NCBI RefSeq assembly: GCF_022227765.1 | Contig: NZ_JAJMLZ010000007.1 | Coordinates: forward strand, 1 to 64,000 | Length of the DNA: 64,000 nt | DNA from: Ectothiorhodospira shaposhnikovii | Lineage (GTDB): Bacteria > Pseudomonadota > Gammaproteobacteria > Ectothiorhodospirales > Ectothiorhodospiraceae | Reading direction: 5' to 3' | Shown: positions 44,059-53,561 of the stretch, piece after piece | Numbering within the stretch: the first letter of the stretch is position 1 | Layout of the letters: every line of letters begins with the position of its first letter | Program-made: the position numbers and the translations under genes | The notes under the pieces: generated by a model | Database searches by the model: none | Seen by the model: the letters and a program-made list of their open reading frames with translations, nothing else | Told to the model about the DNA's origin: nothing

Positions 44059-44988
<930 letters not shown>

Positions 44989-45524: not shown

Positions 45525-45716
45525 TTCTGATCCCCTGTAGAATTGATTGCCATGCATTCCGGCAGCCGGGTAAACACAACGGTGTATCCGACCCGAGCCA
45601 GATGGCGTAGCCAGCCATGATACTAGGCGATCTGCAACGGGTGAATAGGCACAGGGCGGCAAGTGGCTTTACCGGTGTGACACAGGTCATTGGCAGGGCA
45701 ATCAACAGGAGAGGAC

Positions 45717-48317
45717 ATGATGAATCGGGACAACAGGGTTTCCACCGGACTGGACGGTCTGGACGCCGTGATCGACAGCCTTCGCATCGGCGACAACGTG
45801 GTCTGGCGCGTGGACCACATGGATGACTACCGGCGCTTCATCGATCCCTTTCTTGCCGCGGCCCGGGAACGCCGGCGTGCCATCATCTACCTGCGCTTCG
45901 GTCGCCATGCCCCCCTGGTGGAGGCCGGGCCCGATGTCCATATCGTGCAGCTGGATGCCCTGTGCGGCTTCGAGGCTTTTACCTGTCACGTCTACCAGTT
46001 GATCACCGACCATGGCAGGGGGGCATTCTATGTCTTTGACTGTCTCTCCGACCTGCTCTCCGCCTGGGCCACGGACCTGATGGTGGGCAACTTCTTCCAG
46101 GTGGTCTGCCCCTATCTGTATGAGCTGGACACGGTGGCCTACTTCGGTCTTCTGCGCCATCGCCATTCCCATCACACCGTGGCCCGCATCCGGCGGACGA
46201 CCCAGGTCCTGATCGATGTGCGCCGCACCCGCGAGGAATGTCATGTCCAGCCGGTCAAGGTCTGGAAGCGCCACTCGCCCACCATGTTCCTGCCCCATCG
46301 CTGGCGGGACGACCGATTTTCCCCCGTGATCGACAGCAGCGATGCCACCCGGGTACAGACCGCCCTGGAGCGGGATCATGTACAGGAACCGCAACGTCAT
46401 CTGGACTACTGGAATGCCCTGTTTCTGGAAGCCGCGGCACAACTGCAAACCTCCGGTGACGAGGCCGGACGGGCCGCCCAGGTGGAACGACTGTGCCGCG
46501 TGATGCTGGGTCGGGACGAACGCATCCTCGACATGGCCCACCGGTATTTCCACCTGGAGGATCTCATGGCCATCCGTGCCCGCATGATCGGCAGCGGTCA
46601 TATCGGCGGCAAGGCAGTGGGGATGCTCCTGGCACGGCAAATCCTGCGGCGGGAAGACCCGGATACCTGGGAACGGAGCCTGGAGCCCCATGATTCCTTC
46701 TTTCTGGGTACCGATGTCTACTACTCCTTTCTGGTACACAACGGCTGGTGGCCCAGGATCATGCGTCAGCGCACGCCGGACGGCTATTACAGCGAGGGCC
46801 AGGCCCTGCACGAGCGCATGCTCCATGGTCGCCTGCCCGATGAAATCCGCGAGGAGCTGGCCAGGATGCTGGACTACTTCGGCCAGTATCCCATCCTGGT
46901 GCGTTCCAGCAGCCTGCTGGAGGATGGCTTCGGCAATGCCTTCGCCGGCAAATACGACAGCGTCTTCTGCGTCAACCAGGGCACCCCGGAGGAACGGCTC
47001 GAAGCCCTGGAACAGGCCATCTGCCGGGTCTTTGCCAGCGCCATGAGCGAAGACGCCCTGGTCTACCGCAGCCAGCGGGGCCTTGCCGACCTGGAGGAGC
47101 CCATGGCCCTGCTGCTGCAGCGGGTCAACGGCCGTTACCATGGCCGTCATTACCTGCCGGATGCCGCCGGCGTCGGTGTTTCCCGCAACATCTTTGCCTG
47201 GGACCGGGACATGGACCCGGCGGCGGGCATGGTACGCCTGGTCATGGGGCTGGGTACGCGGGCCGTGGATCGCAACGATAGCGACCATGCCTGCATCATT
47301 GCCCTGGATCACCCGCTCAAGCGGCCCTTTGCCCATGCCGACGATGGTCGTTTCTGCCAGCACAAGGTGGACACCCTGGACGTGCTGGACAATGAACTAC
47401 TCAGTCGCCCCTTGCGGGATCTGGTCGAGGCGGACATGGATCATGTGCTGCAATGGTGCGGGGAACCGGACCGGGAAGCCAGCGAGCAATCCCGAAGCCT
47501 GGGTGGACCACCGATGTGGCGACTGACCTTCCGGCCGTTACTGGAGAAGACATCCTTCGTGCCCATGATTCAGGGGCTTTTACAAACACTGGAGTCGGTG
47601 TATGCCTATCCGGTGGATGTGGAATTCACCGTTCATCTGGGAGCGGACGGCAGCCCTTCATTCAATCTGGTGCAGTGCCGCCCCCTGCAGACCCAGGGCG
47701 GCAACCACCAGGTCCGGATCCCCGCTACCGTCGATGACGACGCGATCCTGTTCCGCAGCCAGGGGCACTTCATGGGCGGCAGTCTGGATCAACCCATCGC
47801 ACGCATCATCCGCGTGGATGGTGAACGCTACAGCGCCCTGACTCTGCAACAAAAATACACCGTGGCCCGTCTGGTGGGACAACTCAACCGGCGCATGTCG
47901 GATCGGGATGACCAGCCTACCCTGCTGATCGGCCCGGGACGCTGGGGCACCAGCACGCCGGAACTGGGCGTGCCGATCCGTTTTGCCGATATCAGTCGTA
48001 TGGCGGTCCTGATCGAGGTCGCCGAACTGGGCGGCGGCGTGATTCCGGATTTGTCCTATGGTTCCCACTTTTTCCAGGATCTGGTGGAATCCGGCATTGC
48101 CTATGTGGCCCTCCGTCCCCGGGAGGCCCATACGGACTACCGGCCGGACCGGCTCCACCAGGCCGTTCGGGAAGCGATTGATCCCGATCTGGTGGAAGGC
48201 CTGAACGAGACCGTACTCGCGACCGTGGAGATCCACGATGTGCGTGCCCTGGACATGAAACTGCTGGCGGACGTCATCAGCCAGCAGGTCCTGTGCTGTG
48301 CATTCAGACGCATCTAA
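45717..48317 (+). CDS. PEP/pyruvate-binding (PPDK-type ATP-grasp) protein with KaiC-like N-terminus
   Basis: 866 residues. The start ATG at 45717 (or 45720) follows AGGAG. Residues 1-200 look like a KaiC/RecA fold (STGLDGLDAVIDSLRIGDNV), but the P-loop GxxxxGKT is absent. Residues about 300-690 form a pyruvate-phosphate-dikinase N-terminal nucleotide domain (GHIGGKAVGMLLARQIL, YPILVRSSSLLEDGFGNAFAGKYDSVF, EEPMALLLQRVNG, then DVEFTVHLGADGSPSFNLVQCRPLQ). No swivelling His domain or PEP-binding barrel follows. The C-terminal 200 residues are unassigned. Function unknown. Probably a signalling or phosphotransfer-type protein. Confidence 0.8.
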   Translation: MMNRDNRVSTGLDGLDAVIDSLRIGDNVVWRVDHMDDYRRFIDPFLAAARERRRAIIYLRFGRHAPLVEAGPDVHIVQLDALCGFEAFTCHVYQLITDHGRGAFYVFDCLSDLLSAWATDLMVGNFFQVVCPYLYELDTVAYFGLLRHRHSHHTVARIRRTTQVLIDVRRTREECHVQPVKVWKRHSPTMFLPHRWRDDRFSPVIDSSDATRVQTALERDHVQEPQRHLDYWNALFLEAAAQLQTSGDEAGRAAQVERLCRVMLGRDERILDMAHRYFHLEDLMAIRARMIGSGHIGGKAVGMLLARQILRREDPDTWERSLEPHDSFFLGTDVYYSFLVHNGWWPRIMRQRTPDGYYSEGQALHERMLHGRLPDEIREELARMLDYFGQYPILVRSSSLLEDGFGNAFAGKYDSVFCVNQGTPEERLEALEQAICRVFASAMSEDALVYRSQRGLADLEEPMALLLQRVNGRYHGRHYLPDAAGVGVSRNIFAWDRDMDPAAGMVRLVMGLGTRAVDRNDSDHACIIALDHPLKRPFAHADDGRFCQHKVDTLDVLDNELLSRPLRDLVEADMDHVLQWCGEPDREASEQSRSLGGPPMWRLTFRPLLEKTSFVPMIQGLLQTLESVYAYPVDVEFTVHLGADGSPSFNLVQCRPLQTQGGNHQVRIPATVDDDAILFRSQGHFMGGSLDQPIARIIRVDGERYSALTLQQKYTVARLVGQLNRRMSDRDDQPTLLIGPGRWGTSTPELGVPIRFADISRMAVLIEVAELGGGVIPDLSYGSHFFQDLVESGIAYVALRPREAHTDYRPDRLHQAVREAIDPDLVEGLNETVLATVEIHDVRALDMKLLADVISQQVLCCAFRRI

Positions 48318-48335: not shown

Positions 48336-48373
48336 AAAAAAAGCCCCGGGTTCCCACGCGGGGAACCCGGGGC
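48336..48373 (-). terminator. Rho-independent terminator of gdhA
   Basis: GCCCCGGGTTCCC and GGGAACCCGGGGC form a 13-bp stem (48343-48373) with a run of seven T on the minus strand (A on plus, 48336-48342). It lies between convergent gdhA and the PPDK-like gene. Confidence 0.88.
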
Positions 48374-48405: not shown

Positions 48406-49758
<1,353 letters not shown>

Positions 49759-50372: not shown

Positions 50373-53300
50373 TCAGGCCCCCTTGGGCAAGGGGGATGGA
50401 GCCTTCACTTCCACACGGTTGCGACCGGCATTCTTGGCCCGGTACAAGGCCTCGTCGGCCCGTTGCAGGACATGGTCCGGTAGGATGTCACACCCTGCCA
50501 GGCTGGTAATGCCGATGCTCACCGTGATCGGGATTTCCAGCTCATCCGTGCGCACGGGGATGCGGGCAATGCGCTTTCTGAGGCGTTCAGCCAGGGCCCT
50601 CGCGGCCTGCAGATCGGTATCCGGCAACAGGACCGCGAACTCCTCTCCCCCCATGCGCCCGGCAAAATCGCTCTTGCGCAGACAATAGCGAACCAGTGAC
50701 GCAAAATGCCTGAGCACCGTGTCGCCGGTGGAGTGGCCATGGGTATCGTTCACATGTTTGAAATGATCCAGGTCCAGCATCATGACGGCGGCCCGGTGAT
50801 CGGGATTGCGGTCCATTCGCAGGATCTCCTCCCGCATCCGTTCGAGAAAATGACGCCGATTGGAAAGCCCGGTGAGGTGATCGGTGGTCGCCATCTCCCT
50901 GAGTTCCTGCTCCATGCGCTTGCGGTCGGTGATGTCGGAAATGGTCCCCACCATGCGCAGGGGGTTCCCCTTGGGATCACGTCTCACCACCAGTCCGCGG
51001 GCCAGGATCCAACGCCAACCACCTTCCTTGCCATGCACGCGATGCTCGGTCTCGTAGTGAGCCGAGCTGCCATCCAGATGTCGCCGCAGATGCTCCCGCA
51101 CATGATGACGGTCATCCGGATGCACATGCCGGAACCACTCCTCAGCCCGGGAACACACAAACTCATCCTCACTGTACCCCAGAATCTCTCCACAGCGCCG
51201 GGACTGGATCAGGGTATCGGCCTGCACGTTCCAGTCAAACACAGCATCACCGGCCGCCTCCAGGGCAAAACGCCAGCGCTCGGCATTTTCCTCCAGAGTT
51301 TGCAGGTTTCCTGTGCGTTCGATGGCAATGGCGGCAAGATTGGCAAATTCTCGGATCGAACGGATTTCACTTTCAGACGGGCTATGAATCCGGCGCCGAA
51401 ACAGGCTGACATGACCCAGCAGCCCCCCTTGTGATGACGGGATCGGAACCGACCAGCAGGAGGCGAGCCCGCGCTCCATGGCCGGCGCCTTGAGATCGGC
51501 CCACCGGGGGTCCGAGTGAATGTCGGTCGAGATGAGGATCTGTCGCCGACCTGCCGACCCGCAGGCCGGCGGCCCGACAATCCCGTTACCGAAATGATCT
51601 GAAACCGCCCGCTGAAAATCCGCATCCAGGCTGGGTGCCGCGGCCGGCACCATGCGCTGTTGCGTCTCGTCCATCAAGGAAATGAGGCACAGGATCTCGG
51701 GATCCTCAAGCTCCACACTCCGGGCCAGGGAATCCAGTATCACGGGCAGTTCGGCGCCACCGGCCAGCAGGGAAAGTACCCGATTCCTTCCCGCCTCGCG
51801 CTGCTCGTGTCGCTTGCGATCCGAAATATCCGCCAGCGCACCCTCAAAGTGCAGCATATTGCCGTGCGCATCATATTCAACAACCGTATGATCCTCGATC
51901 CAGAGGGTCTTGCCCGTGCTGGTGACAATCCGATACTGCTGACGAAACTGCTTGCGATTGTGTCGTATATATCGTCCCAGCTCGGCGATCAGGCGCTCAC
52001 GATCATCCGGATGAACCAGATCGATGAACCGCTTTTCACCCGACATCATCTCCGCCGCCGAATACCCCCAGCGTGACACATTGGCGGAAATGTAATCCAC
52101 CGGCCATCCCGGATCGGCCAGCCAGCGGCAGAGTATCACCACACCGGACTCCACCACCCGGTTGACCGACTTGAGCAACTCCATGGCCTGCAGGCGTTCC
52201 AATGCCACCGAGAGGTCCCGCACCATCTCCCGCAACAGGGACACCGTCCTACCGGAAAAGGCTCGTGACTGGGCGCTGAAAAGATTCAGTGTTCCACTCA
52301 TTTTTCCCGATGGGGTCACGGCAAACCTGGCCAATGACCGCATCCCCGCGGCCAGGGCTTCCCCGGCATCATGCAACCCGGCATTTTCGGCGCTTAAGGT
52401 ATCGATCACGATATGTGGCGCATGACCCGACACATCATCGCTTGCATTCGCCGTTAGCCATCGCATTGAACATTGCTGAGGCTCGATATCACCCACGTCA
52501 TCACCGGCACGGGCAAACAGGCGCAATTTACGGGCATCCCCGGCTTCCCACAGCCCGATCCACGCCGCACTGAAACCACCCCGGCTCACCAGGATTTCGC
52601 ACACCGCATGAATCAGCGCCTTGCGATCATGGTGGCGGACAATGGCCTGATTCACACGAATCATCATGTCCTGTAATTGCTCATGCTGTTGCCGGGCAAA
52701 CCGATCACCTTCGTCTTGCCCGACACCCCGCAGAACAACGAAATAGGCGCTGGGGCCACCGTCGGCATGACGCACGGCGCGCACACACACGGAGGCCGCA
52801 ATGACCTTGCCGTCGGCGCGCACGAAGGCCTTGTTGCATTCAAATTGATCAATGCTCCCCGATACCAGACGGGAAAACTCGCGGGCCTCGTCTTCAAGGC
52901 CCTCACTGAGGGAAACGGACTGCCAGGTCATTCCCAACAGCTGATCCCGGGAATGGCCCAACATTTCGACCAGGCGCTGGTTGACGGCGGTCCAGCGATA
53001 ATCCTTGGGGGAGAGCATGCCCAAGGCAACAAAGTGCAGACTGTAGAAATAGTCCATCAAAGGACTGTCGATCAATGCATGGACGTGCCGCACGGGCCGT
53101 TCTGCCAGGGTGACGGCAAAGCATGGGGACATGCCGGAGGGCTTACGGCCATTTTTGGCCACATGGACATCAGCATGGAACACACGCCCCTGCCCGCTTC
53201 TGAACAGCAGACCCTCTTCCAGCACACTGCCGATGTTGCCGGCCCGGACAACGAGATCCGTGATCGAAGGGCAGCCTTCCCGGGGTAACTGGAAATCCGC

Positions 53301-53561
53301 CAGATTCAGTGCCGGGACCAACCGTTCCTTGGCATCATCCCCCCACAACAAATCCAGGGCCACTGCATTGCCCTGCAGGATCAATCCATTACCGTCCACC
53401 AGCAGTTCGGCAACGGGAGACTCAAACCGCAACCCTTCGGCTGCGTTGCCAACGGAGGAAGATACCGCGGACACGGCAGATGTCAGAGGCAGGGTATGCC
53501 TGTCTGTCGGCAAGGCCATGCAAGGGTCCTTGGCACCACGGCCACGCAGGAAAAGCATCAT
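50373..53561 (-). CDS. Soluble multi-sensor diguanylate cyclase (PAS/GAF/GGDEF)
   Basis: 1062 residues, no membrane helix or signal peptide. Approximate order: PAS 45-160, PAS 165-290, GAF 300-460, PAS 470-590, GAF 600-765, PAS with PAC 770-890, GGDEF 895-1055. The active site is GGEEF, and the product-inhibition I-site RKSD stands five residues ahead of it, so a regulated active enzyme is expected. It makes cyclic-di-GMP, the ligand of the YcgR-like protein at 39834-40616. No EAL domain. Signals sensed by the PAS/GAF modules are unknown. Confidence 0.92.
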   Translation of the reverse strand: MMLFLRGRGAKDPCMALPTDRHTLPLTSAVSAVSSSVGNAAEGLRFESPVAELLVDGNGLILQGNAVALDLLWGDDAKERLVPALNLADFQLPREGCPSITDLVVRAGNIGSVLEEGLLFRSGQGRVFHADVHVAKNGRKPSGMSPCFAVTLAERPVRHVHALIDSPLMDYFYSLHFVALGMLSPKDYRWTAVNQRLVEMLGHSRDQLLGMTWQSVSLSEGLEDEAREFSRLVSGSIDQFECNKAFVRADGKVIAASVCVRAVRHADGGPSAYFVVLRGVGQDEGDRFARQQHEQLQDMMIRVNQAIVRHHDRKALIHAVCEILVSRGGFSAAWIGLWEAGDARKLRLFARAGDDVGDIEPQQCSMRWLTANASDDVSGHAPHIVIDTLSAENAGLHDAGEALAAGMRSLARFAVTPSGKMSGTLNLFSAQSRAFSGRTVSLLREMVRDLSVALERLQAMELLKSVNRVVESGVVILCRWLADPGWPVDYISANVSRWGYSAAEMMSGEKRFIDLVHPDDRERLIAELGRYIRHNRKQFRQQYRIVTSTGKTLWIEDHTVVEYDAHGNMLHFEGALADISDRKRHEQREAGRNRVLSLLAGGAELPVILDSLARSVELEDPEILCLISLMDETQQRMVPAAAPSLDADFQRAVSDHFGNGIVGPPACGSAGRRQILISTDIHSDPRWADLKAPAMERGLASCWSVPIPSSQGGLLGHVSLFRRRIHSPSESEIRSIREFANLAAIAIERTGNLQTLEENAERWRFALEAAGDAVFDWNVQADTLIQSRRCGEILGYSEDEFVCSRAEEWFRHVHPDDRHHVREHLRRHLDGSSAHYETEHRVHGKEGGWRWILARGLVVRRDPKGNPLRMVGTISDITDRKRMEQELREMATTDHLTGLSNRRHFLERMREEILRMDRNPDHRAAVMMLDLDHFKHVNDTHGHSTGDTVLRHFASLVRYCLRKSDFAGRMGGEEFAVLLPDTDLQAARALAERLRKRIARIPVRTDELEIPITVSIGITSLAGCDILPDHVLQRADEALYRAKNAGRNRVEVKAPSPLPKGA

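Follow-up and report, generated by a model that had tools for sequence, protein, structure and literature searches.

A gene of Ectothiorhodospira shaposhnikovii that lies between bchL and gdhA raises the question of what is done by a protein in which a KaiC-like domain is joined to part of a PEP synthase. The gene is located in the window, by which the whole 64,000-nucleotide stretch of DNA analysed from the 3.34 Mb host assembly is meant, and its frame (45717-48317, + strand) is translated into 866 residues with no internal stop. The Shine-Dalgarno-like AGGAGAGG precedes the ATG at 45717, and a TTG upstream at 45690 is a possible alternative start. The features that are referred to below are as follows.

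45717 to 48317, + strand: whole gene, 866-residue protein with a pseudo-KaiC domain, an ATP-grasp domain (PPDK_N) and a C-terminal GPGRWG/GSHFF module (translation, alignments A1 and A2)
45720 to 46334, + strand: residues 2-206, KaiC/RecA-fold domain of the inactivated-KaiC type, without a P-loop (AlphaFold2, KaiC Z 21.4)
45789 to 45833, + strand: residues 25-39, conserved GDNVVWRVDHMDDYR in the place of the Walker A loop (profile alignment to KaiC/RadA)
46335 to 46583, + strand: residues 207-289, helical connector between the two domains (DSSP of the models)
46599 to 47729, + strand: residues 295-671, ATP-grasp domain, Pfam PPDK_N (PF01326), with invariant nucleotide-site residues
47730 to 48314, + strand: residues 672-866, C-terminal module with GPGRWG (739-744) and SYGSHFF (780-786), no Pfam family
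48066 to 48068, + strand: H784, an invariant histidine and candidate phospho-carrier
48406 to 49755, - strand: gdhA, NADP-specific glutamate dehydrogenase (GDH; NF006929, 778 bits against a cut-off of 536)

Near-full-length homologues range from 95% down to about 40% identity, and at least 559 relatives were confirmed in the named genome collection, which together indicate that the gene is real. The best 80 of these relatives were kept as named loci, and 76 of them were aligned with the window protein (alignment A2, 77 rows), across which the full architecture is conserved. It is nearly certain that this architecture combines a KaiC domain in inactivated form with an ATP-grasp domain that looks active.

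The N-terminal domain was modelled with AlphaFold2 from 62 sequences (residues 1-291, mean pLDDT 88.3, pTM 0.82). KaiC chains rank first in the Foldseek search of this model (7s65_B, E 9.7e-11), and a second structural alignment superimposes residues 2-203 on the CII domain of KaiC (7s65_B) with Z 21.4 and an rmsd of 3.0 over 195 aligned residues. A Z of at least 8 is obtained with 997 of 998 chains, and FlaH, PH0186 and sso2452 score 18-19. The RecA/KaiC fold can thus be assigned with confidence, in the predicted model, to residues ~2-210. The first-pass annotation had recognised a KaiC/RadA-like start and a replaced nucleotide-binding loop by eye from STGLDGLDAVIDSL and GDNVVWRVDHMDD, both of which are found in the translation at residues 9-37, and both parts of its reading are borne out: neither an unrelated N-terminal fold nor a P-loop in the orthologues, the two outcomes that it had named as contrary, was encountered. 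Walker A is present in 0 of 77 sequences of A2 and 0 of 17 of A1, compared with 19 of 19 KaiC/RadA controls.

In place of Walker A, a conserved GDNVVW.VD....Y is present, in which GDN.VW is near-invariant in A2. Residues R60, H64, D108, D120, C131, Q163, K181, R185 and H194 are conserved in 76 or 77 of the 77 sequences, and together with the replacement motif they indicate that the pocket has been reshaped rather than has decayed. D108 is the Asp in the Walker B place (77 of 77), and, in the majority of the 12 most frequent variants shown, RF..H occupies what appears to be the site of the catalytic acidic pair that follows the second core strand.

Sequence profiles are less informative about this domain. 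In the single-sequence Pfam scan of the 866-residue protein at E <= 10, PF01326 is the sole family matched (residues 295-671, 1.1e-44), so that of the two profile searches that had been proposed, the one with PF01326 succeeded and the one with the KaiC profile PF06745 did not. PF06745 is also absent from the 25 of 29 Pfam families shown for the N-terminal domain of 62 members, in which the most frequent sub-threshold matches are DUF7090 (13 members), MEDS (7) and PAXNEB (6). PAXNEB/Elp4 likewise has a RecA-type fold. The profile comparison to KaiC/RadA keeps its register between STG and the Walker B Asp with E 0.0075-0.01, but an E as low as 0.004 was obtained with one of the 28 unrelated control families; KaiC kinship from sequence was consequently dropped, and the relation is drawn from the fold match.

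The ATP-grasp domain follows, as had been proposed. Residues K299, R396, S415, E636, Q653 and R655 are invariant in 77 of 77 sequences, and with its nucleotide site so conserved the domain looks active, as far as can be judged from residue patterns. K299, E636, Q653 and R655 presumably correspond, by pattern, to Lys22, Glu297 and the Q.R motif of rifampin phosphotransferase (RPH). R396 and S415 align to RPH Arg117 and Thr136, which contact the alpha-phosphate according to the available text of PMC4844700. When the full-length model (pLDDT 88.0) is superimposed on known structures, Z is 26.5 for rifampin phosphotransferase 5hv1 (rmsd 2.9 over 299 aligned residues) and 24.3 for PEP synthase 2ols (rmsd 3.1 over 297).

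The similarity to these enzymes is limited to this part of the protein. NCBIfam PEP synthase models give 17-54 bits against cut-offs above 590, with the match confined to the ATP-grasp part, and the RPH and PigC/RedH models match the same part weakly and far under cut-off. No RIF-binding domain is detected, with no NCBIfam RPH match above cut-off, and no C-terminal PEP/pyruvate-binding barrel is found by Pfam at E <= 10 in the 866-residue protein. The protein therefore shares with RPH-Lm and PEP synthase the ATP-grasp fold, whereas it is without the RIF-binding, the pyruvate-binding and any Pfam-recognisable swivel domain, bears an additional N-terminal pseudo-KaiC domain and ends in the GPGRWG/GSHFF module instead. 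The first-pass claim that phospho-His and PEP domains are lacking holds in that Pfam finds neither, but it passed over a C-terminal module with an invariant histidine.

This module, the ~195 residues that follow the ATP-grasp domain, carries a second strongly conserved motif block. G739, P740, G741, R742 and G744 are invariant in 77 of 77 sequences, and H784 is His in all 75 sequences of A2 that reach it, within S[FY]G[ST]HFF. For residues 661-866 of 61 members, Pfam at E <= 10 yields no meaningful match, PF00391 included, and only twelve single-member chance matches with E 0.02 or higher. In the full-length model the region contains a strand at 735-740, a strand at 764-768, a helix at 784-791 that begins at H784 and a strand at 795-799. 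Such a strand-strand-helix-strand order is known from swivel phospho-His domains.

The structural alignment enters the C-terminal region in 5hv2, where residue 799 is matched to 838, that is, 15 residues past H784 and 13 past His825, the catalytic His of RPH as given in the accessible portion of PMC4844700. It also does so in 5hv3 (862 to 866), and other structures are out of that register (2ols, 798 to 459; 5hv1, 857 to 750). Sequence comparison did not recover a hidden swivel domain: when the module was aligned by hhalign with 20 PEP-utiliser domains, the E was 0.08 in the wrong register, as against 0.037 for the best of 28 unrelated controls, and an ungapped profile scan ranks the H784 register at 24 to 91 of about 850. 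Since both sequence tests are negative, the idea of a swivel is drawn solely from the topology and the invariance of the His.

Two groups of known proteins help to place the N-terminal domain. KaiC/RadA-type ATPases likewise have a RecA-like core, an STG..GLD start and an Asp in the Walker B place (D108 here), whereas the present protein has a single such domain, has lost Walker A in 77 of 77 sequences and carries RF..H at the presumed place of the KaiC-like acidic residues. Inactivated KaiC domains (iKaiC; MEDS, DUF835) of archaeal two-component systems also combine a KaiC fold without ATPase motifs with another module; the term, its examples and the listing of MEDS as an inactivated KaiC are found in the available text of PMC5847659. 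The KaiC fold, the lost ATPase motif and the fusion to a signalling or enzymatic module that define iKaiC are all seen here. In contrast to the iKaiC sensors, which are fused to a histidine kinase or receiver, this mainly bacterial domain has a PPDK-type ATP-grasp as its fusion partner. The host genome (G000) also encodes, on contig C12 at 120666-122039, a two-domain KaiC-type ATPase with a P-loop in its first domain.

The protein is widespread and mainly bacterial, with the full architecture present from Gammaproteobacteria to Bacillota and Methanobrevibacter. Among the best 80 relatives are Ectothiorhodospiraceae, Thiobaca, Marinobacter, Methylophaga, many Desulfo- and Syntroph- bacteria, Planctomycetes, Omnitrophota, Spirochaetes, Bacillota and one Methanobrevibacter; the closest named relative among the matches listed is Ectothiorhodospira magna, whose protein is 83% identical. 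A near-full-length copy is present in 15 of 40 relatives (own genome counted), and within the family 29 of the 47 genomes yield a match at E <= 1e-60. The gene is rare in the even samples of the class (5 of 369 genomes) and the phylum (2 of 398), again with the own genome counted. This patchy, wide distribution suggests horizontal movement.

In the window, the gene is flanked on one side by the BchL gene (44059-44955, - strand; TIGR01281 above cut-off) and on the other by gdhA, which is convergent and lies 88 bp downstream. The photosynthesis-gdhA setting that had been described is thus correct here, but its photosynthesis side is local, whereas the gdhA and ammonium-assimilation side is conserved; this recurrent linkage, like the C-terminal block, was overlooked in the first-pass annotation. 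A strong GC-rich hairpin at 48343-48373, with an A-run on the + side, lies between the two convergent genes and, with its T-run on the - strand, is likely the terminator of gdhA as far as its sequence tells. Upstream of gdhA, a 1062-aa frame (50373-53561, - strand) has PAS/GAF-like and GGDEF (GGEEF) sequence by eye, and a GGDEF/EAL gene family is also seen near the gdhA and pseudo-KaiC/ATP-grasp pair in Marinobacter loci.

The conservation of the linkage was examined by clustering the flanking ORFs of the best 80 named loci and scoring GDH by tblastn. Glutamate dehydrogenase (PF00208/PF02812) forms the largest neighbour cluster; it is found in the flank of 42 of the 80 loci, in several phyla, and within 600 bp in 31. 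After the 76 loci of A2 are reduced at 70% identity to 41 clusters, 25 have GDH and 19 have it within 600 bp. By chance, assuming 1-2 GDH genes per 3.3 Mb, a 22.5-kb locus would contain one in ~1.4% of cases, or ~1 of 80. At least one strong neighbour for nitrogen assimilation or regulation (GDH, GltB, GltD, PII, AmtB, GlnA or NrpR, each thresholded) is present in 52 of 80 loci.

The neighbour representatives were identified by Pfam as GDH, a GltD-type oxidoreductase, a GAF/sigma-54 activator, NrpR, PII and AmtB. The sigma-54 activator with a GAF domain recurs in 10 loci and NrpR in 7; GltBD, PII/AmtB or NrpR are the neighbours in other loci, and the Omnitrophota neighbours include GltBD, CarAB and PyrG. 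Physical linkage to gdhA or other nitrogen-assimilation genes is therefore observed in distant lineages. A 192-aa family without a Pfam match (L108:4418-4993, +) is also found near gdhA in 5 of 80 loci, on Desulfobacteraceae-type contigs.

The arrangement of the two genes varies. Among the 31 loci with GDH within 600 bp, it is upstream and co-directional in 18, downstream and convergent in 10 and downstream and co-directional in 3; among all 42, the orientation is co-directional in 23 and opposite in 19, and 9 co-directional gaps are <= 50 bp. In Marinobacter, only 3-21 bp separate the gene from gdhA. These differences indicate that the pair is not one inherited block and that the association formed or was rearranged several times. 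In the genus of the window, GDH adjoins the gene in 8 of 8 genomes carrying it (within 170 bp in 7, at 2.5 kb in one). Two of the four distant genomes of the even samples also have the genes adjoining, at about 330 bp (G157) and 26 bp (G511). One genome (G007; L023, L026; C1:3546380-3550080) carries a second, frame-broken copy of the gene next to an additional gdhA that contains one internal stop; it seems that the two genes were duplicated as a pair and are now degenerating.

The linkage is not universal. No GDH is found in the flank of 38 of 80 loci, some of whose flanks are short, and no nitrogen gene in that of ten Bacillota and Methanobrevibacter loci (L095, L098-L102, L104-L106, L110). 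These ten keep the full architecture, with no common neighbour recognised, and the role of the protein in them may differ. In six genomes of the family (L197-L202), GDH is absent from flanks of up to 20 kb; five have it elsewhere, and one (81% complete) has no GDH match anywhere. Among 25 family genomes, 13 have both genes, 2 the gene alone, 4 GDH alone and 6 neither (Fisher p 0.028, uncorrected for kinship); of the 15 relatives that carry the gene, 2 (81 and 82% complete) thus lack GDH, which 4 of the 10 gene-less members possess. For the clades in which the gene is gdhA-linked, a functional link to GDH or ammonium assimilation is quite probable.

Three Bacteroidota relatives, found by tblastn against plasmid records, match the query from residue 291 onward only, at 25-29% identity. 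Over the shared core of ATP-grasp and C-terminal module, the identity is 21-25%. They keep the GPGRWG and G[ST]HFF blocks in all three cases, H784 included, and their heads give PF00072 response-receiver matches just below cut-off (E 2-5e-6). gdhA is adjacent and divergent in Parabacteroides and Phocaeicola and is not in the Prevotella locus. The heads are therefore swapped, KaiC-like here and receiver-like there, on one ATP-grasp/C-terminal core, and that this core retains its GDH partner while its sensory head changes speaks most strongly for a regulatory output. The available text of PMC5847659 also mentions REC-PPDK fusions. In the open-licence literature, nothing was found on the combination of a KaiC-like domain with ATP-grasp or on its gdhA link, and the available text of the Prevotella ammonium-response paper (PMC5552732) yielded nothing on this gene.

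The functional lead is thus nitrogen, not photosynthesis or time-keeping. Photosynthesis was rejected as the general function because most relatives, judging by their names, are not phototrophs. A clock function, which the first-pass annotation also denied, was rejected for want of evidence and in view of the genuine two-domain KaiC-type ATPase on contig C12. The first-pass suggestion that the protein may sense or transfer nucleotide state agrees with the data. The protein is most likely an ATP-dependent regulator or phosphotransferase that serves glutamate dehydrogenase and is gated by an interchangeable sensor head, and it probably controls ammonium uptake in response to energy or nitrogen state. 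More specifically, a three-part signalling or phosphotransfer protein dedicated to ammonium assimilation, with its output on GDH or the 2-oxoglutarate/glutamate branch point, is favoured tentatively, at slightly below an even chance. In this mechanism, the KaiC-fold domain, having lost P-loop ATP binding, would act as a sensor or docking head for a putative ligand or signal. The central ATP-grasp domain, of the PEP-synthase/rifampin-phosphotransferase class, would still bind and cleave ATP, the conserved C-terminal module would complete the catalytic or transmitting unit, and the output on NADP-glutamate dehydrogenase, the presumed target, or on the branch point would keep GDH activity in step with the energy and nitrogen state of the cell. 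It is doubtful that such proteins form a novel class of ATP-driven His phosphotransfer signalling proteins, in which swappable dead-KaiC or receiver heads control transfer from the ATP-grasp domain to H784, the would-be phospho-acceptor, on a strongly diverged swivel and the phosphoryl group or the phosphorylated state switches GDH; if it were true, many bacteria would possess a dedicated post-translational control of the GDH route.

The protein may instead belong to the PEPS/RPH/PigC class as a small-molecule phosphotransferase or ligase and phosphorylate or activate a metabolite near glutamate, with the pseudo-KaiC domain used for substrate binding or oligomerisation and the GDH link reflecting a pathway rather than regulation. 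The structural proximity of the ATP-grasp domain to rifampin phosphotransferase and PEP synthase, its intact nucleotide-site residues, the weak PigC/RedH and RPH matches and the Omnitrophota neighbours GltBD, CarAB and PyrG, all of amidotransfer or nitrogen metabolism, agree with this proposal, as does the description of RPH-class relatives as a wide family of small-molecule phosphotransferases in the available text of PMC4844700. However, no pathway gene recurs widely beyond GDH and the nitrogen-assimilation enzymes and regulators, and the receiver-like heads of Bacteroidota fit regulation better than substrate binding, so that such an enzyme is considered rather unlikely. A non-catalytic adaptor, in which the ATP-grasp domain senses ATP, ADP or AMP without phosphotransfer and inhibits or activates GDH by binding, would suit the lack of a phospho-His domain in Pfam and the negative sequence tests for a swivel, but the invariance of K299, R396, S415, E636, Q653, R655 and H784 is stricter than mere binding needs, and this too is improbable. 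That the protein is a PEP synthase, ordinary or in decay, which by chance became joined to a domain of unknown role, as the automatic name of a relative ('PEP/pyruvate-binding domain-containing protein') might suggest, is hardly credible; this reading, which the first-pass annotation had also doubted, was rejected, given the architecture conserved from Gammaproteobacteria to Bacillota and Methanobrevibacter, the match to PPDK_N only in Pfam, the NCBIfam scores far under cut-off and the separate gene with PPDK_N and PF00391 on contig C12, presumably the real PEP synthase of the host.

Glutamate dehydrogenase is one of the two points at which ammonium enters cell carbon, and to our knowledge the switching of bacteria between GDH and GS/GOGAT is poorly explained outside a few models. 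A conserved ATP-grasp protein that recurs beside gdhA, headed by either a dead KaiC or a receiver-like domain, offers a concrete candidate for the control of GDH, and Marinobacter is one of the culturable hosts in which this could be tested. The protein further provides a mainly bacterial instance of a KaiC domain that has become a non-ATPase part, as well as a PPDK-type enzyme that lacks the usual third domain.
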